From NCBI GenBank assembly GCA_021824575.1, contig JAKAKJ010000016.1, forward strand, positions 62,001-126,000: a stretch of 64,000 nucleotides of DNA, written 5' to 3'. Source of the stretch: Chloroflexota bacterium (GTDB lineage Bacteria > Chloroflexota > Anaerolineae > Anaerolineales > Villigracilaceae). The notes beneath the pieces were generated by a model that did no database searches, was not told the origin of the DNA, and worked only from the letters and a program-made list of their open reading frames with translations. Positions 7,529 to 62,330 of the stretch are shown here, piece by piece; position 1 is the stretch's first letter, and each line of letters starts with the position of its first letter. A program made the translations under genes and the position numbers.

Positions 7529-8410
7529 TCAAAATTTTGTTGTTACAATTTTACCTGATGAATTCCATTCCTTGAATTGCGAAAGCAGAACAGCAAACAA
7601 AATCAAGCCGCAACCGATTATTTGAATCCACGCAAGTTTCTCGCCGAGGATGAGCCAGCCCGAAATTACAGAGAAAACCGATTCGAGTCCCAGAATGAGT
7701 GCAGCATCGGTTGGAGGCGTATGCCTCTGTGCCCAGACCTGCAACGTGTAAGCAATCCCCAATGAAAATACGGCCGTATAAACGATGGCTCCTATCAGCG
7801 GCAAATTGTTGACGGATTGAAAAGGCTCGACGAAGACTCCGATGCCAAAATTGAGGAGTCCACAGATTGCCAGCTGCCCCACCGAGAACGACATCGCTTC
7901 GTACCGCGACGCGAACTTTCCCAGCACGATGACATGGAATGCCCAAAACAACGCGCCGATCAATTCCAGCGCATCGCCCGCGTGGACCTCGAGCTTGCCG
8001 CCCGTCGAAAGAAGGAACGCGCCAACCGCAGCCAATCCAACCGCAACGACCGCCAGCCAACGCGGTTTCTCTTTCCAAAATAGAAACAGCACGATGGGAA
8101 TCAAAACTACATACAAGCTGGTGATAAAGCCCGCGTTGCCGGCTGTTGTGTAAACGACGCCGGCTTGTTGCAATGCGCTTCCGACGAATAGCAAAAAACC
8201 TGCAACGAGCATCCATTTATATTGCTCGCGCGGTATTTTGTTTATCGGATTACGAAGCGTGAACGGCAAAACAATGATCGCGGCCAGAAGATAACGAAAA
8301 CCATTGAACAAATAAACAGACTCCTGCTGTCCCGCGATGCGTTGAGCAACAAAGGCCGTGCCCCAAATAACGGACACAAGAAAGAGAGTCAGATCAGCTT
8401 TCAGGCGCAT
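7529..8410 (-). CDS. EamA/DMT-family transporter
   Basis: A 293-aa protein with ten hydrophobic helices in two EamA repeats. Each repeat has typical features: WGTAFVAQRIAG in helix 1, a short helix pair with a GALFWAFHVIVLGKFASRYEA linker, and LGLESVFSVISGWLILGEKLAWIQIIGCGLI near the end, the classical E-x-x-x-x-x-x-G-W-L-x-L-G-E motif. The family exports metabolites such as amino acids or nucleosides; the substrate cannot be deduced. It is the promoter-proximal gene of the minus-strand run and diverges from the MoxR gene. Confidence 0.88.
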   Translation of the reverse strand: MRLKADLTLFLVSVIWGTAFVAQRIAGQQESVYLFNGFRYLLAAIIVLPFTLRNPINKIPREQYKWMLVAGFLLFVGSALQQAGVVYTTAGNAGFITSLYVVLIPIVLFLFWKEKPRWLAVVAVGLAAVGAFLLSTGGKLEVHAGDALELIGALFWAFHVIVLGKFASRYEAMSFSVGQLAICGLLNFGIGVFVEPFQSVNNLPLIGAIVYTAVFSLGIAYTLQVWAQRHTPPTDAALILGLESVFSVISGWLILGEKLAWIQIIGCGLILFAVLLSQFKEWNSSGKIVTTKF

Positions 8411-55564: not shown

Positions 55565-55614
55565 GAAGAAGCCTCCGAGCGGCAATTATAACCGCAAAGG
55601 CAGACGATAATGAA

Positions 55615-55658
55615 TTCCCAATTGGACGGTCACATAAGGCTACTGGAACAATTGGGAA
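55615..55658. promoter_or_regulatory. 10-bp inverted repeat between TR and MBL gene
   Basis: TTCCCAATTG (55615-55624) and CAATTGGGAA (55649-55658) are perfect inverse complements 24 bases apart. It may end the retroelement transcript, structure the TR RNA, or be an operator for the MBL gene. Confidence 0.55.
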
Positions 55659-55777
55659 GTTTATATATTTGGCATGGATAAATCAATTCCATACCGGGCA
55701 GAGAGCCAGCCAATTTTGCCGCGATGTCCGACCGTAATCGGAGCACACTACTGGCATTCGACTTATCGCTTGTAAAA

Positions 55778-55897
55778 TTGTGGAGGGCGCACACCCGAAA
55801 ACCGATATTGTTGTTCCTGTTGTTCGGGTTATTGTTGTTGCGGTTCGCGACACGCGCGTTGTCTTCATTGTTGTTCCACGAGCCGCCGCGCAGAGCC
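55778..55897 (-). repeat. DGR template repeat (TR)
   Basis: A 120-bp copy of the end of the 57437-60286 gene. On the minus strand it reads as an Asn-codon-rich sequence ([18 protein letters not shown] and [11 protein letters not shown]) preceded by an in-frame TAG, so it is not translated in that frame. Against the VR it has 20 mismatches, all at minus-strand A (10 A-to-G, 6 A-to-T, 4 A-to-C in the VR); 16 A and all 84 other bases are identical. It starts 18 nt after the avd stop. This is the hallmark of adenine-specific mutagenic retrohoming. Confidence 0.97.
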
Positions 55898-55915
55898 TAT
55901 GGCTCTTGCCCAGAT

Positions 55916-56275
55916 TCACCGCTTTATTGGCGGAGTATCCCGATTTTGTTTCAGCCACGCGCCCAGCAGTCTGCCGATTTCTGACAAACTGCGAGCGGCG
56001 TGTTCATATTGTTTGAGCGTAAACAATTGGTTATCGCGTGCAAAGCGCACCCAGACTCGTAATTGCTCCAATTGGATATCCGCCGACTTTAATTTCTCGA
56101 CCCTGCTCATGCCCTGACTCTTGCCTGCGGCAACCAGCATATCTTGAAAATCGAGAGCAAGCCTTTGGACACGTTCGGCCAGCGTAAAGCGGTAGAGACG
56201 GGGAAATTTCTGCGCGTGTGGAATGAGCCACAACAAGAAATCATAGGTGCGAACGAAAAGCGGAGATTCATTCAT
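55916..56275 (-). CDS. avd: DGR accessory variability determinant (Avd-like)
   Basis: A 119-aa, basic, all-helical protein: SPLFVRTYDFLLWLIPHAQKF, LAERVQRLALDFQDMLVAAGK, ADIQLEQLRVWVRFARDNQLF and QYEHAARSLSEIGRLLGAWLKQ. This is the four-helix-bundle/S23-like pattern of Avd proteins, which form barrel-shaped pentamers that bind the reverse transcriptase and template RNA. ATG 56275 overlaps the RT stop by four bases (ATGA), ensuring coupled synthesis. Gene order RT-avd-TR differs from the avd-TR-RT order of the Bordetella phage element. Confidence 0.9.
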   Translation of the reverse strand: MNESPLFVRTYDFLLWLIPHAQKFPRLYRFTLAERVQRLALDFQDMLVAAGKSQGMSRVEKLKSADIQLEQLRVWVRFARDNQLFTLKQYEHAARSLSEIGRLLGAWLKQNRDTPPIKR

Positions 56276-57327
56276 AAAGCCACCCCGCCCAATATGGAAC
56301 GACGTAGTCCCCATGTGTCTCCATAACCCACATAATGGGTCCAGCTTTTTATGATCTGATCCAATTTTGAAATGTCCAACATACCTTCGGCGTATTTGTT
56401 CAACCGGTGCTGCAACTTTCGGCGGAAGTGAATGGCTTTACGCGTTTTGAGCAAACGATGATCGGAATAAACACGAAAGCCAAGAAAAGGAATGCCGGTT
56501 GAAGTTGGGAAAATCTGCGCACACTCTTCATGCAAGGTGAGCCGCAGCCCGGCAAGCTTTTGAATGATCTGCTTCCTCCAATGATCCAATTCGATTTTAC
56601 TGTCAGAGAAAAGTAGAAAATCATCCACGTAGCGAATATAAGCTTGACATTTTATCTGGCGTTTCACGTAATGGTCGAAATCGTTGAGATAGACGTTGGC
56701 CCAAAACTGGCTGGTGAGGTTGCCAATCGGAAGACCACGCGGACGATGCGCAGCAAACAAGTCATCGCCCGTGAAATAAGTCATCTCGTATTCTTCTGCC
56801 AAAACTCCCACGCCGCTTTTCAGAATCACTCCGCACAGCCATAAAACTTGTTCATCCTTGATGCGGCGCGAAAATTCAGCAATGAGGATGGCGTGGTCAA
56901 TGGACGGGAAGAATTGGCGCACATCGCATTGCAGGAAATATCTATATTTGCGGGCGAACTCCTGCGTGCGGTCCAGGGCGCGATGCGTACCCTTGCCGAC
57001 GCGATTGGCATACGTATCGTGGATAAAACGATTTTCCCAAATGGGCTCGATTACACGGCACAAGGCATGATGCACGACGCGGTCGCGAAACGGCGCGGCG
57101 GAGATCAGGCGTTTTTTGGGGTCGTGAATAAAAAAGCTGTGATATTCGCCCGGCTTATACGTAAAACTTTGCAGTTCAGCCTGCAGGGTGAGCAATTCAT
57201 CCTCTTGTACCCTTTCAAAACTGGCGGGCTGTGCCCTGCCGCGCTTGCCCTTGCGCGCTTTGCGATAGGCAAGATACAGGTTTTCAAAATCATATACTTG
57301 CGGGTAAAGATGTTTATAGGTTTTCAT
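56272..57327 (-). CDS. DGR reverse transcriptase
   Basis: A 351-aa group-II-intron/retron-like RT. Catalytic motifs: FLQCDVRQFFPSIDH (Asp135), GLPIGNLTSQFWANVYLN (residues 198-215; the (I)G-N/Q-x-T-S-Q segment typical of DGR and retron enzymes), YIRYVDDFLLF (YVDD 233-236) and FLGFRVYSDHRLL. No maturase or endonuclease domain, as expected for DGR enzymes. It should copy the TR RNA with errors at A. RBS AAAGGAG precedes ATG 57327. It lies 109 nt after the target gene, past a terminator, and overlaps avd. Confidence 0.96.
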   Translation of the reverse strand: MKTYKHLYPQVYDFENLYLAYRKARKGKRGRAQPASFERVQEDELLTLQAELQSFTYKPGEYHSFFIHDPKKRLISAAPFRDRVVHHALCRVIEPIWENRFIHDTYANRVGKGTHRALDRTQEFARKYRYFLQCDVRQFFPSIDHAILIAEFSRRIKDEQVLWLCGVILKSGVGVLAEEYEMTYFTGDDLFAAHRPRGLPIGNLTSQFWANVYLNDFDHYVKRQIKCQAYIRYVDDFLLFSDSKIELDHWRKQIIQKLAGLRLTLHEECAQIFPTSTGIPFLGFRVYSDHRLLKTRKAIHFRRKLQHRLNKYAEGMLDISKLDQIIKSWTHYVGYGDTWGLRRSILGGVAL

Positions 57328-57350
57328 TTCAACTCCTTTGAGAATTGTTT

Positions 57351-57374
57351 AAAAAATTCCCGCCTTACGGCGGG
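57351..57374 (-). terminator. Terminator of the DGR target gene
   Basis: On the minus strand CCCGCC-GTAA-GGCGGG (57374-57359) followed by AATTTTTT. It separates the target transcript from RT-avd-TR, although readthrough is possible. Confidence 0.8.
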
Positions 57375-57395
57375 AGGTTGCAAACACAGAACGCA

Positions 57396-57414
57396 CGCCC
57401 CGCAGAACGGGGCG
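57396..57414. other. Candidate DGR hairpin/cruciform downstream of VR
   Basis: CGCCCCG-CAGAA-CGGGGCG: a perfect seven-base GC-rich stem with five-base loop, 30 bp beyond the VR 3' end. In characterised DGRs a similar hairpin just after the VR stimulates retrohoming. Confidence 0.6.
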
Positions 57415-57436
57415 AACAGAAAAGCAGAAAACAAAA

Positions 57437-60286
57437 TCACCCGTTGGGGAGGGCGCACACCCGAAAACCGATACCGTTGAGCCTGAGGTCCGGGCTACTG
57501 CTGCTGCGGTCCGCGACACGCGCGCCGTCTACAAGGTTGAACCACGAGCCGCCGCGCAGAGCCAAGTAATTATATGACTTGCTTGAGTAGTTGGCTTGCC
57601 ACTCCCAAACATTGCCGCTCATGTCTAAAAGTTTATGCGGGCTGGCTCCCTGCGGGTACATCCATACCGGCGTGGTCTTGCCAATGCCGCTTTCACCGGT
57701 ATTGGCAAAGTTCGTAAGCTCTTTGCTGTCTTTGAGGAGTCCCCATGCGAAACGTTCCTTTGGTTGAATACCGCCAGCGGCAGTTTCCCATTCATTCTCT
57801 GTGGGCAGACGAATTTCGTTTGGCTTGGGCAAGCCTTGTTTTCCTTCTTCGAGTTGATCCCAATTCTCCAACAACCATCTGCAATAAGCGCTGGCTTCAT
57901 ACCATGAAATCCCAACCACAGGCGCGGCATGGTGTGCGTTCCCGAAGCGCGGGTCGCGCCAGTACCGAGGAAGAAGCACGCCATCTTCTTCCCGTTCCTG
58001 TTTTTGCAGCCAATCCCAGCCTTCACTGCCAAAGGTCTGTTTTGGCATGAGTTTGCTGTTCTCATCATATTTCGGGAAGTCCTTCCAGTATTCTTTGTTT
58101 GTAAAGTTTTCTGGTCTCAGGAAGCGCTCGTATTGAAAATTGGTCACCAGATATTTGGAGAGATAATATTTTTCGCCGGAGATGGGCAGGAAGGTGTGCA
58201 GGTCAGCAGGAATGTAACCTAATTCATCGAGTGTATCTGCGGCGGCGGCGCGTTCGCGTGGAGAAAGAGCGCCCTTCGTAACCAAAGAGAAAAGTCCTTT
58301 ACGTATTTTCGGCTCTGCGGAGGCTTTGTCTTGAAAATGATTGCGTTGATACAAGGCCAGCAGATCGCCGGAATACCAAAAGGCGCGCCAATCGGGATGC
58401 TCCGTTTTGGCAGGCAGGCGTTCCGGTGTCAGGGCAGACAATAAAGTTTCCATACGCTCGTGATCGTTCTCGGCAAAACATAGGTATTCGCCCAACAATA
58501 TCACCACTTCACGCCAGCGGTCATCTTTTTGAACCAAGTCACGCGTAAGCTTGCCAAAATTAGGGCGACGGGTAAGGTAGCGCGCCCCCAGGAATTCTTC
58601 AAAGGTAAGGTGAGGAAAGGCATAAACACGAAGAGGCGGGGTATCGGCTGGCGCATCCGGCACAGCCACCGAACCTTGCAACATCAACAACCCATTTGAA
58701 CTCTGGCAATAATCAAGAAAGGTTTGCACTTTCTCTTTCTTTGGGTCGGGAAAGTGCGCCCAGAGCACACTTGTCAATAAATCTTCCGTAACCAGGGCCG
58801 GGCCGCGCTTCTTATCGCCGTCAGGCTGGCGGCCTTCATGCGCCTTGAATGCGATCTCCCACAAGGCGCGATCCAGAATAGTTCGGTTAATTCCCAACTC
58901 GTCAATGATCGTGCGCTTTTGGGTTTGCTGGGATTGTCCCGAAACAGGGCGTTCCAATTCCCAACGCACGAGCAATAGATCCACGCAACGCTCATACACT
59001 TCTGCGCGTGAGTCGGGTAAATCGTTATAGTGCGTATGGACGACTGCCATCATGGTCAAAATGATCGGGAAGGGCGCGATCTCATGCAAGCGACGGCGGT
59101 CATCGGGCTGGAGCGAAGCCAGCAAACGCTCGCGCTTGTTTGCATAATCCGCTTTTCTGGCAGGCTCGATGCGGGCATGTTCATCATGCCATGCCCTGAC
59201 GAAGAATTCGATCTTTTTATCGTCGAGCAAGGCAAGGTCATGAGTTGACCAGCCGGTCAATTGCCAGCGCGGATCGTTGTGATACGAATAGGTTCTGCAC
59301 GTCACAAGAAAGCGATTGACCTGTTGTCGCTTATAGCGTTCCACAAAATCCTCCACCGATTGGATCACGATGGGGCGCAAATTCAAATCCGCCACTTCAT
59401 CCAGCCCATCAAAAAGCACAAGTCCGCCGCGCTTCTCCAGTTCACTTAGAATCTGGTCAGCAAAATCAGCCATGCGCTCATCGCTCTTGAGTGATTGAAC
59501 GATATAGTCTTCGACCAGTTTGGCGCTTCCTCGTTTACATTCCGCAGGAATGGTCTCGGCCATTCTTCCAAGCGAAACAATGACAGGTAAAACAGGTCCG
59601 CCCTGCCAGTCAGGTAAAAGGGTTTGGATGTTCCGGCTGCGATCCACTTCGGCCTGCGCCATTCGTAAAGCCAGGTAACGAACAAAGGTGGATTTTCCAG
59701 TACCCGGCAAGCCGAGCAAAACAATATGACGTTCAGTATCCGTTGATAATGCTTCCAACGCAGCCAGCGGACGGGTTTCTTCGCGGTTGATCAATTCCTG
59801 CAATCTTTCCTGCTCATCATCACCTGACGCTGGCTGCCGTGGTTTTGATTTTTTCTTTTTATCAACAACGGTGGTTGTATCCAGAGAGATATATAGAGAT
59901 TCAAGAGTCAAGCCGCCGCGTGTCGGGTCGGATGCCTGCGGGTCAATGCCCACCAAACGAAGGGTCCGGCAGTCAGCGATGACTGCATTCAAGTATCGTT
60001 CGCGCGCATTTTCAGGGTGCTTTATGGGGACATCGGCGGGAGGGCGGGTAACGCGTGACGAGCTCGATTCCGCAACTTCATTTTCTTTTGCCGGTTTTCG
60101 ATTTACAAATAATTGCAGAATAAAAATAATCATCGCCCCAATCGCCGCAATATATACCAGGGGCAGGAAACGATCTTCAATCCTGCTTCCGATCAGGGCA
60201 ATGACCGCAATCAATAAAATGGCAAACGCAAGAATGGCGGTTAACTTCCCCGCAAGCGTCTCGAAGAATTTCATCCATTGCTTCAT
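57437..60286 (-). CDS. DGR-diversified membrane NACHT NTPase with FGE/C-type-lectin domain
   Basis: A 949-aa protein. Residues ~14-62 form two transmembrane helices with a very short outer loop, so both termini should be cytoplasmic. Residues ~185-450 are a NACHT-type NTPase: Walker A GLPGTGKS (192-199), Walker B LVLFDGLDEV (289-298), and FLVTCRTYSY. A helical region (~450-695) ends in a HEAT-like LSPRERAAAADTLDELGY. Residues ~699-949 are an FGE-sulfatase/C-type-lectin fold (VVGISWYEASAYC, RLPTENEWE, GNVWEW, RGGSW, IGFRV). Residues ~908-948 are the VR. The FGE catalytic Cys pair is not seen, so it should bind a ligand. ATG 60286 has GGGAGG. Confidence 0.93.
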   Translation of the reverse strand: MKQWMKFFETLAGKLTAILAFAILLIAVIALIGSRIEDRFLPLVYIAAIGAMIIFILQLFVNRKPAKENEVAESSSSRVTRPPADVPIKHPENARERYLNAVIADCRTLRLVGIDPQASDPTRGGLTLESLYISLDTTTVVDKKKKSKPRQPASGDDEQERLQELINREETRPLAALEALSTDTERHIVLLGLPGTGKSTFVRYLALRMAQAEVDRSRNIQTLLPDWQGGPVLPVIVSLGRMAETIPAECKRGSAKLVEDYIVQSLKSDERMADFADQILSELEKRGGLVLFDGLDEVADLNLRPIVIQSVEDFVERYKRQQVNRFLVTCRTYSYHNDPRWQLTGWSTHDLALLDDKKIEFFVRAWHDEHARIEPARKADYANKRERLLASLQPDDRRRLHEIAPFPIILTMMAVVHTHYNDLPDSRAEVYERCVDLLLVRWELERPVSGQSQQTQKRTIIDELGINRTILDRALWEIAFKAHEGRQPDGDKKRGPALVTEDLLTSVLWAHFPDPKKEKVQTFLDYCQSSNGLLMLQGSVAVPDAPADTPPLRVYAFPHLTFEEFLGARYLTRRPNFGKLTRDLVQKDDRWREVVILLGEYLCFAENDHERMETLLSALTPERLPAKTEHPDWRAFWYSGDLLALYQRNHFQDKASAEPKIRKGLFSLVTKGALSPRERAAAADTLDELGYIPADLHTFLPISGEKYYLSKYLVTNFQYERFLRPENFTNKEYWKDFPKYDENSKLMPKQTFGSEGWDWLQKQEREEDGVLLPRYWRDPRFGNAHHAAPVVGISWYEASAYCRWLLENWDQLEEGKQGLPKPNEIRLPTENEWETAAGGIQPKERFAWGLLKDSKELTNFANTGESGIGKTTPVWMYPQGASPHKLLDMSGNVWEWQANYSSKSYNYLALRGGSWFNLVDGARVADRSSSSPDLRLNGIGFRVCALPNG
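57444..57563 (-). repeat. DGR variable repeat (VR)
   Basis: The last 40 codons of the NACHT-FGE gene. Compared with the TR-encoded residues, W-NNNEDN becomes W-FNLVDG, A-N becomes [14 protein letters not shown] becomes R-SSSS-P-DL-R-LNG, and H becomes P: 14 amino-acid changes, none disrupting the frame. The invariant framework (RGGSW, ARVA, IGFRV) is kept. The 3' end (ATCGG to CCCTCC) is unmutated and identical to the TR, as expected for the IMH initiation site. Confidence 0.97.
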
Positions 60287-60771
60287 AACCTGCCTCCCAA
60301 AATACATAGAATGAATTGGAGAAAATCAACAATCAAAAACCGCTCTCGTCGCCGTCCCCGGCGGCGAGGACGCCGCCCGGAGCAAACTTACAAGACAGGC
60401 TTTTGCAAGAGGTCCATGGAATGAATTGGAGAAAACAACAATCACCTTCGACCTTTTGGCAAGTATATCAGGATAACAAATAGTCTAATTGAATCATCGG
60501 CGATGATATCCTCAATCCTCAGGCAGGATCGAGTCGATCCTCGACGAGGTTTGACTCAATCTTCAGGCGGGTTTAAGACACTCATTGCTGGGAATTGGTT
60601 GAATCGACGGCGTCGATTCGTGAATTTTGACAAATTTGTAAAGCACAGCGCGCAATATTTTTTATATAATTTTTGCAGTCATCCGAAAATGGTGGGTAAT
60701 CATAGGTTTCGCGACAGACGGTTTCCCCCATTTACAGACGACAAATTCATCACATCTTGAGGAGGAAGGTC
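60287..60771. promoter_or_regulatory. Palindrome- and repeat-rich intergenic region, DGR target / HU-like gene
   Basis: A 485-bp gap without a gene. It holds a duplicated 26-27 bp sequence (60309-60335 and 60419-60444) flanking a GC-rich element, four odd-length perfect palindromes at 60493-60507, 60527-60539, 60539-60549 and 60601-60619, a 17-bp imperfect direct repeat (60511-60527, 60555-60571), and an AT-rich stretch with TATAAT at 60665-60670. A TTGACA at 60627 is too far from it (32 nt) for a normal promoter. Confidence 0.65.
60342..60383. repeat. GC-rich three-arm repeat element, copy B
   Basis: GCTCTCG, GTCGCCG-type arm, TCCC, CGGCGGCG-AGGA-CGCCGCC (perfect hairpin), GGAGC. Same 42-bp length and same joints as copy A (39894-39935), but the arms carry complementary bases. 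Confidence 0.65.
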
Positions 60772-61170
60772 ATGGCATCACGGATCAAGGCAATTGGAGC
60801 CTATCGTCCCCGCATCGAACAGGGCAATACCGTTCAAAAGGCCGAGCTGGTGCGCGGGTTGGCGCGCGCCACCAGTCTGAATGAAGGTGCAGTGGATCAG
60901 GTTATCAAGGAACTGCGCGACCAGATCATCGAATACAACCGCGCCGGGCGCGGAGTCAAGGTGGAGGGCCTTGGCACCTACACACCCAACATCGGTCTGG
61001 ACGGCAGTTTCGATCTGCAATACCGGGCAGATACCGCGCTGAACAACGGCCTCAATGTTCCGAACACTTTCTCGGGCACAATCATCAACCGTGAGAACAT
61101 CGGTAAGACCGGCGATCAATTGGTCGAGAAGTGGAACAGCGACCACCCGGACGATCTGGTCAGCGATTAG
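60772..61170 (+). CDS. HU/IHF-family-like DNA-binding protein
   Basis: A 132-aa protein. Residues ~20-75 resemble the HU helical body (VQKAELVRGLARATSLNEGAVDQVIKELRDQIIEYNRAGRGVKVEGLGTYTPNI), matching HU's A-x-x-x-x-(L/V)-x-G-x-x-V-x-(I/L)-x-G-(F/L)-G-T-F strand. The C-terminal half differs from canonical HU and is an oligomer-type domain. ATG 60772 has GAGGAGG. It may compact DNA or bind the palindromic region upstream. It diverges from the retroelement target gene. Confidence 0.82.
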   Translation: MASRIKAIGAYRPRIEQGNTVQKAELVRGLARATSLNEGAVDQVIKELRDQIIEYNRAGRGVKVEGLGTYTPNIGLDGSFDLQYRADTALNNGLNVPNTFSGTIINRENIGKTGDQLVEKWNSDHPDDLVSD

Positions 61171-61427: not shown

Positions 61428-62330
61428 ATGCCCAAAACAAAACTTGTTCCGATTCTCGAAGCAATCTTTACAACGGTCATTTGGGGCGGAACGTTCATCG
61501 CCACCAAAATCGCATTGCAGGAGGTTTCACCGGCTACCGTCGTGTGGCTGCGATTTGCAATGGGCGTTGTTATCCTTGGCGCGGCGGTTTTCATACGAAA
61601 AGAATTTGCCGTCCCTCAACGAAGCGAATGGGCATACTTTGCTCTGCTGGGATTCATTGGCGTGGCATTTCATCAATGGCTGCAAGCCAATGGCTTGCAA
61701 ACCGCACAGGCAACCACGACTGCATGGATTGTCGCATCCACGCCAGTATTCATCGCCCTGCTCGGTTGGCTGGTGTTGAAAGAAAAACCTGGCTGGTTAC
61801 GCATCGGCGGCATAGCCCTGGCAGCCATCGGCGTTTTGTTGATTGTCAGCAAAGGCAACATCGGCGCTTTGTTCACTGGACAGGAAGGCACAATCGGTGA
61901 TCTGCTGGTTTTGATCAGCGCGCCGAACTGGGCAGTTTATACAATACTTTCGCGACGCGAACTTGGAAACCATCCCGCAGCGCGCATGATGTTTTATGTC
62001 ATGTTATTAGGCTGGATTTTCACCGCCGTTTGGATTTTTGGTTTTGGCCCGGGGCTGAGCGAAATTGGTCATCTCGATCTAAAAGGCTGGAGTGCAATTC
62101 TTGTCCTTGGAATATTTGGTTCGGGCCTGGCGTACATTGCTTATTATGACGCCCTGCAAGTTTTACCCGCTTCGCAGCTCGGTGTGTTCCTCAACATCGA
62201 ACCGCTGGTTACTACACTGCTTGCCGCGCCTTTGCTTGGTGAACCCATTACCTTTATTGTTATTTTGGGCGGCGCGGTCATTTTGTTTGGAATCTACCTT
62301 GTCAATCGAAAGCCGATGAATACAAATTGA
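61428..62330 (+). CDS. EamA/DMT-family transporter
   Basis: A 300-aa ten-helix transporter of two EamA repeats: FTTVIWGGTFIATKIALQEVSP, WLRFAMG, GWLVLKEKPGWLRIGGIALAAIGVLLI in repeat 1; AVYTILSRRELGNH and FLNIEPLVTTLLAAPLLGEPITFIVILGGAVILFG in repeat 2. It is a second paralogue besides that at 7529-8410, with different sequence. Exported metabolite unknown. The jelly-roll-like gene follows four bases later. Confidence 0.88.
   Translation: MPKTKLVPILEAIFTTVIWGGTFIATKIALQEVSPATVVWLRFAMGVVILGAAVFIRKEFAVPQRSEWAYFALLGFIGVAFHQWLQANGLQTAQATTTAWIVASTPVFIALLGWLVLKEKPGWLRIGGIALAAIGVLLIVSKGNIGALFTGQEGTIGDLLVLISAPNWAVYTILSRRELGNHPAARMMFYVMLLGWIFTAVWIFGFGPGLSEIGHLDLKGWSAILVLGIFGSGLAYIAYYDALQVLPASQLGVFLNIEPLVTTLLAAPLLGEPITFIVILGGAVILFGIYLVNRKPMNTN

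Follow-up and report, generated by a model that had tools for sequence, protein, structure and literature searches.

In the Bordetella phage BPP-1 the diversity-generating retroelement (DGR) is built of mtd, avd, a template repeat (TR), a spacer and brt, and, according to the available part of PMC12875486, the folded spacer 3' of the TR recruits the reverse transcriptase (RT) bRT together with Avd and primes the synthesis of cDNA. Clade-5 DGRs are described from multicellular bacteria (e.g. Thiohalocapsa PB-PSB1), with filamentous Chloroflexi among their hosts (Dore et al. 2024, PMC10907252): in the accessible portion of that account the targets are STAND/NACHT proteins with C-terminal CLec/FGE domains, action in trans is inferred for variable repeats (VRs) matching the TR of another locus, and remote targets use the TR of that other locus or else the incomplete loci are ascribed to structural variants. 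FGE-type sensors are tied to DGRs in the VMAP ternary systems as well, where the TR stands nearby or elsewhere in the genome (PMC7159879), and genes with a VR far from the RT are reported in Treponema denticola (PMC4891356) and in cyanobacteria (PMC7517822). As far as the available excerpts of these papers go, targets far from the RT, action in trans and TRs at other places of the genome have already been published, and a large survey states that DGRs with remote targets escape its method (Roux et al., PMC8144416). Here we analyse a stretch of 64,000 nucleotides (the window; positions 62,001 to 126,000 of contig JAKAKJ010000016.1) from the Chloroflexota bacterium assembly GCA_021824575.1 (genome G000, 98% complete). 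It carries a complete DGR of a known kind; the interesting part is a constant RNA domain 3' of the TR, which also occurs on modules of template and target that have no RT beside them.

The DGR of the window lies on the minus strand in the order target gene (60307-57437), RT (57327-56272), Avd (56275-55916) and TR (55897-55778), and the VR (57444-57563) is found near the end of the target gene. RT, Avd, TR and adenine-specific rewriting of the VR are shared with BPP-1, but the gene order is different, and the target is a cellular NACHT-like/FGE protein instead of a tail protein; this target type fits the clade-5 DGRs as they are described in the excerpt at hand. An earlier note, made from the letters of the window alone, had read the minus-strand parts as a complete DGR; all of them were recovered, their positions were right, and every count it gave for the two repeats came out the same on recomputation. 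TR and VR can be aligned over 120 gapless positions with 20 mismatches, all 20 of which are at one of the 36 template A (A to G in 10, A to T in 6 and A to C in 4 cases), and 0 of the 84 C, G and T sites differs. The exact hypergeometric probability of this is 2.5e-13, lower still than the chance of below about 10^-11 that had been put forward. The second codon position is hit 12 times, the first 8 times and the third never; 14 of the 39 VR codons change their amino acid, the VR stays open and the stretches ALRGGSW and IGFRVCAL are unchanged, so the RGGSW...GFRV framework is kept, as had been claimed. The 20th difference (57447 versus 55781), on which one of the 14 amino acid changes depends, is located 27 nt past the 19th and adjoins the 3' end of the homology. 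The repeat search alone also recovers the pair (120 nt, 83%), and in an A-bias screen of the whole window it was accompanied by one other match, a 40-nt inverted repeat. An assembly artefact as the source of the pair was ruled out by the A-only pattern and by the many relatives with the same layout. Past activity of the DGR on this gene, the conclusion of the earlier note, is supported by the sequence.

The nearest relative (locus L080 in genome G001) has the same operon with an RT gene 87% identical to that of the window. Its TR keeps 116 of the 120 sites, and none of the 4 differences is at an A (36/36 A kept). At the expected VR site (G001:C169, L080 around 4960) there are two N, after which the contig jumps to the RT leader; this break may hint at a variability that broke the assembly.

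The RT (351 aa, 56272..57327, minus strand) was identified by profiles, a search of PDB, motif comparison and a tree, and has the motifs IGNLTSQ and YVDD. The earlier note had named a position outside the DGR clade as what would refute it; a tree calculated from 29 RTs places the window RT among 23 DGR rows, which a branch with support 100/99 separates from the 6 other RTs. Among solved chains the best match is 8ub7_A, the bRT of BPP-1 (1.4e-49), followed by a group II enzyme at 2.6e-19. GLPIGNLTSQ is invariant across 16 RTs of the family, and its SQ is taken by us as the mark of a DGR-type RT. The best NCBIfam model is a group II RT/maturase, well under its cut-off, and the best PADLOC model is a general RT (3.2e-50) with many DRT models behind it; a reading as defence RT was not adopted because Avd and the TR/VR pair are present. 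The nearest named relatives are mostly metagenome-assembled genomes (MAGs) of Anaerolineae and other Chloroflexota, the closest RT (90%) standing on a contig titled Anaerolineae bacterium isolate fen_1070. The source genome has three RTs of this kind of similarity, the window RT counted with them, and the SQ motif is found in the window RT only. The accessory protein Avd (119 aa, 55916..56275, minus strand) matches bAvd (3.4e-23), NF033474 (101 bits, cut-off 80) and PDB entries 4dwl and 8ub7_B, passing the curated cut-offs of both NCBIfam and Pfam; avd and the RT stop overlap by 4 bp.

The target gene (57437..60307, minus strand) encodes 956 amino acids according to its open reading frame and domain profiles, and the listed start may be 7 codons early, since a second ATG follows. 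By eye the N-terminus has hydrophobic stretches, and a NACHT/AAA-like NTPase region stands at about 181-346 (nSTAND3 28.4 bits, just above its cut-off; AAA_16 31.3 and NACHT 26.3 bits, both just below). The C-terminal FGE-sulfatase domain (712-950) is above the Pfam cut-off at 3.3e-32, and with this family match it may have a C-type-lectin fold; the AlphaFold model of the domain was poor (pLDDT 46) and hence unused. By comparison with related systems the protein is likely an immune sensor, the tip of which would be rewritten by the DGR.

The DNA following the TR was aligned for 16 loci, and a conserved stretch appeared. In the window it corresponds to a structured RNA domain (55608..55762, minus strand, covariance model 120 bits) which ends in a long hairpin; neither this domain nor, confined as it was to the window, a second TR/VR pair elsewhere in the genome had been part of the earlier note. 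In a 25-sequence alignment that was not fitted to the model, 19 of the 21 pairs have compensatory changes. In 58 sequences, fitted to the model and thereby favouring the structure, 92.0% of 1169 cells are paired. Both sides are altered in 302 cells, where shuffling gives 86.8 (sd 7.1) and sliding the partners 38-77. Covarying helices exist also upstream of the final hairpin, and TR plus domain of the window, folded alone, are more stable than shuffles (z -2.5). Rfam matches in the window stretch did not exceed chance, and none of them covered the domain; in 8 related loci the domain was likewise without a match at gathering scores.

Covariance model R2 matches 67 of 80 related RT loci (E up to 0.01); since 12 of the 80 hold a domain used in R2, the count for loci holding no training domain is 55 of 68. 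Two rows of the first alignment came from the contigs L188 and L200. The strand is that of the RT in 63 of the 67 matches: 34 of them follow the RT at no more than 1.5 kb, and 29 precede it at no more than 1 kb. The domain is present in both gene orders, and of 115 distinct domains 31 have the RT behind them. Among the matched records are some with the titles KSB1, Bacteroidales, Accumulibacter, Thiothrix and Acidobacteria (mostly MAG contigs, binning as recorded; the Thiothrix match is 3 kb away from the RT). R2 has a match in 44 of 301 genomes of the order at 1e-5, and model R1 in 54 of 152 genomes of the family at 0.01. Eight DGR loci from other RT branches (BPP-1, ANMV-1, three cyanobacteria, Prosthecochloris, Ideonella and a Bacteroides phage) gave nothing above 10.9 bits, and because of this the domain seems to belong to one RT subclade. 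In the open PMC papers searched, the BPP-1 structure papers not among them, no report of the domain or of RT-less modules bearing a TR was found. The accessible part of the clade-5 account mentions no conserved RNA domain (PMC10907252), and no template RNA domain is described in the corresponding part on the VMAP ternary systems, which, unlike the present one, are vWA-MoxR systems (PMC7159879).

When the source genome was searched with the TR of the window (TR1), a third place was found, on contig C82 (L009 8630-10562). Here a 483-aa gene with TIR and FGE domains ends in a repeat (VR2), TR2 stands 159 bases further on, and the RNA domain (108 bits) begins 52 bases past TR2. TR2 and VR2 differ at 19 of 122 sites, 18 of them at A (P 3.9e-13); the other is a T to G change near the 3' end, the only difference among 93 non-A sites. 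TR1 and TR2 are 74% alike over 102 bases. Genome searches with both TRs for further VRs found above chance only VR1, VR2 and each other, and with R1 only the domains of the window and of C82 are above chance (next E 0.14). In the 15 kb examined around the module there is no RT or Avd match over 40 aa, and so it is not a complete DGR and may work with one. Another RT of G000 as its driver was considered and set aside, the two others being SP-type and group-II-like in a search for RTs similar to that of the window. Between VR2 and TR2 there are a terminator-like hairpin and, 44 bases before TR2, a TATAAT box, which is missing from the output of the promoter scan, presumably because no -35 hexamer goes with it. 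Genome G003 of the same genus has a syntenic TIR-FGE gene (72% identical protein) with flanks 79-82% identical and without TR or RNA domain after it, and gave no RT match at 1e-30 and no RNA-domain match; G003 may have lost such a unit, or G000 may have gained it.

Similar modules were recognized in relatives. Besides C82 (L009), A-biased pairs without an RT or Avd match at the examined locus are those of L134, L140 (a 5.6-kb contig), L146, L147, L148, L149 and L154 (contig ending just after the RNA), and in L136, L139, L142, L153 and L170 Avd is kept and no RT was found (L142 and L153 at contig ends). The target is TIR-FGE in L009, L134, L140, L147 and L139, KAP-FGE in L146 and L148, and NACHT-FGE in L149, L154, L136 and L170. 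One layout, consisting of TIR-FGE, a gap of 123-159 nt, TR and RNA without Avd, recurs in four genomes (G000, G007, G004, G011). An RT remnant was sought in the gap between VR and TR and up to 1200 nt past the RNA, with no null distribution beyond the modules themselves and with the L154 contig ending there, and none was seen in 7 of the 8 pairs lacking both RT and Avd. Of 16 genomes in which an RNA domain stands without an RT, 11 have a DGR RT at another place, versus 30 of 136 others (Fisher p 2.7e-4); if only the 12 genomes with a TR/VR pair are taken, the counts are 9 of 12 versus 32 of 140 (p 4.2e-4), 4 of the 16 (L141, L145, L152, L156) having no such pair; the 16 genomes were hand-picked, kinship was uncorrected and contig-end loci (e.g. 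G156:C3, G132:C198, G085:C6, G158:C19) were left out. Most RT-less RNAs group, with weak support, in one part of the RNA tree together with L092, L093, L159 and L160, where the RT follows the RNA. Own templates distinguish these modules from what is described elsewhere: in the accessible portions of the papers no own TR or RNA domain is described for the remote targets of Treponema denticola (PMC4891356) and cyanobacteria (PMC7517822), and, unlike in the clade-5 DGRs of PMC10907252 as excerpted, the RT-less unit here is equipped with a different TR of its own, with the RNA domain and with a promoter-like box.

In the part of the RNA tree that holds the RT-less RNAs, an exact TATAAT box stands near-fixed at 38-47 bases before the TR. 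It was counted in 115 distinct domains (drawn from 57 of the 67 R2 matches, the 10 weakest left out, from 58 domains of the model alignment and from 12 more loci; 4 without upstream sequence were not scored): 8 of 20 RT-less domains have it; among domains close to a contig end it was found in 2 of 7, among those followed by the RT in 5 of 30, among those preceded by the RT, as in the window, in 1 of 51, and among the remainder in 0 of 3. The shuffled expectation is 2.4%, and RT-less against RT-before gives p 8.9e-5 with kinship uncorrected. Six of the RT-less boxes are at 206-218 bases before the RNA domain, that of L139 at 183 and that of L270 at 265. Templates in the window order seem to be made from the operon rather than from a promoter-like box of their own.

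Further features were recorded around these subjects. Between target and RT there is a terminator-like hairpin with a T run (57358..57375, minus strand), by consensus match only, three such being found there and 3.0 expected by chance; where avd ends, ahead of the TR, a short hairpin (CCGC...GCGG; 55919..55933, minus strand) was seen by eye and is unscored. At the target start and just upstream of it stand the copies of a 21-base direct repeat (95%; 60305-60325 and 60415-60435, 110 bases apart), and further upstream a divergent gene of an HU-type DNA-binding protein (60757-61170). The neighbours of the C82 module include pantoate ligase and SSB genes. Elsewhere in G000 a second, weak Avd-like protein (22% identity; L079 7313-7660, G000:C93) was found; the 8 kb examined there contain neither an RT nor an A-biased pair nor an RNA domain. 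A second A-biased repeat pair (10/13) occurs at a locus with a DGR (L267 10938-11615), and on an Ideonella plasmid (L292) two annotated avd genes flank one RT, followed by another RT-domain gene.

On the model of BPP-1 and of the clade-5 DGRs of multicellular bacteria, the operon of target, RT, Avd and TR would be transcribed into an RNA in which the TR is followed by the conserved folded 3' domain; RT and Avd would bind this domain, as they do the spacer of BPP-1, and prime cDNA at the 3' end of the TR. The RT would misincorporate opposite template A, and the mutated cDNA would home to the VR and replace it at the end of the gene of the NACHT-like/FGE protein, which would act as a sensor. The RNA domain and not the template is the constant part, therefore it could serve other templates, and the single DGR RT found in G000 could copy TR2 in trans. 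We regard the explanation as a whole, a complete DGR in the window with an RNA handle and with service in trans to RT-less modules, as probably correct, and the copying of TR2 by that single RT as somewhat favoured by the evidence. We are evenly divided about the widest form of the proposal. In it a guide-like RNA gene, separable from the rest of the DGR, would provide the template, with a constant folded 3' handle, exchangeable TRs and, in one subtype, a promoter-like box, so that one RT-Avd would diversify several immune-type genes (NACHT-FGE, TIR-FGE and KAP-FGE) in trans and the RT-less modules would persist or spread as units.

The main rival, unlikely in our judgement and still to be taken seriously, holds that the C82 module and others like it are what remains of complete DGRs, the RT of which was lost recently or survives in other cells, with no action in trans. 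Several observations weigh against trans service or for this rival. Loss of a cognate RT does happen, as is seen from a remnant, from decayed or absent pairs, from RT-less genomes and from the subtype of the C82 RNA, and it may be the whole story. In L149 (G106:C474) about 36 aa from the N-terminus of an RT are left between VR and TR (7911-8159, minus strand), and the locus is therefore plainly a deletion product that lost its RT recently, its pair being 18/18 at A; RT fragments exist also in G011 (71-76 aa) and, short ones, in G111 and G086. Decayed RT-less pairs are those of L135 (15/27 at A) and L137 (8/13), and no recognisable pair was found at L141, L145, L152 and L156, nor at L143, which is close to the end of its contig, and L150, which has an RT fragment next to it. 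In 5 of the 16 genomes no intact DGR RT was found, one pair there being fresh-looking (L147, 19/19 at A), and G156, left out of the 16 for its RNA at a contig end, has no RT match and a pair with 16/16 at A (L154). The C82 RNA is of a different subtype from that of the window, its nearest RT-bearing kin being, with weak support, the four loci L092, L093, L159 and L160, and no RT of the type usual for this subtype was found in G000; L134, another TIR-FGE module, is without the TATAAT box. Non-A mismatches amount to 29 of 927 in RT-less pairs of RT-bearing genomes versus 32 of 2564 in cis (rank p 0.085), and 17 of the 29 come from L135 and L137. These pairs were taken from a 75%-at-A screen, plus L135 and L137; the comparison left out L142 (14/14), L153 (17/20), L144 (11/11, beside an RT fragment), L262-L265, L267-L269, L271 and L273, and the screen gave no pair at 6 cis loci (L080, L083, L090, L098, L160, L169). 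In addition, the available part of Dore et al. (PMC10907252) accounts for two loci that are incomplete by structural variants in which the RT is intact. In favour of trans action stand the missing remnant in 7 of 8 modules, the TIR-FGE layout repeated in four genomes, the co-occurrence of an RT elsewhere with RT-less domains, and the single non-A difference among 93 sites in the C82 pair.

According to a second alternative, the window holds a plain cis DGR whose 3' domain terminates transcription or stabilizes the mRNA and takes no part in reverse transcription. The strong hairpin at the end of the domain, which closes the operon in loci of the window order, would suit this, but the occurrence in both gene orders, the covarying helices upstream of that hairpin and the position of the domain, which is that of the BPP-1 spacer recruiting bRT-Avd in the accessible part of PMC12875486, make it improbable. 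That TR and VR are a fossil without activity, or arose by plain duplication and biased drift, would be helped by the fact that the pair was seen in one genome, and is hardly credible given differences at 20/36 A and 0/84 other sites, open frames of RT and Avd, and a TR with every A kept in the relative.

How DGRs choose and acquire new targets can be approached with the covariance model of this constant domain, which detects templates that have no RT next to them. The domain, shared by RT-less units of template and target, suggests that a single enzyme can introduce mutations into genes at other places of the genome; it offers a direct handle on the recognition between RT and template in a cellular group of DGRs and makes diversification in trans testable. 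If this is true, a bacterium could have several of its immune-type sensors tuned by a single enzyme.

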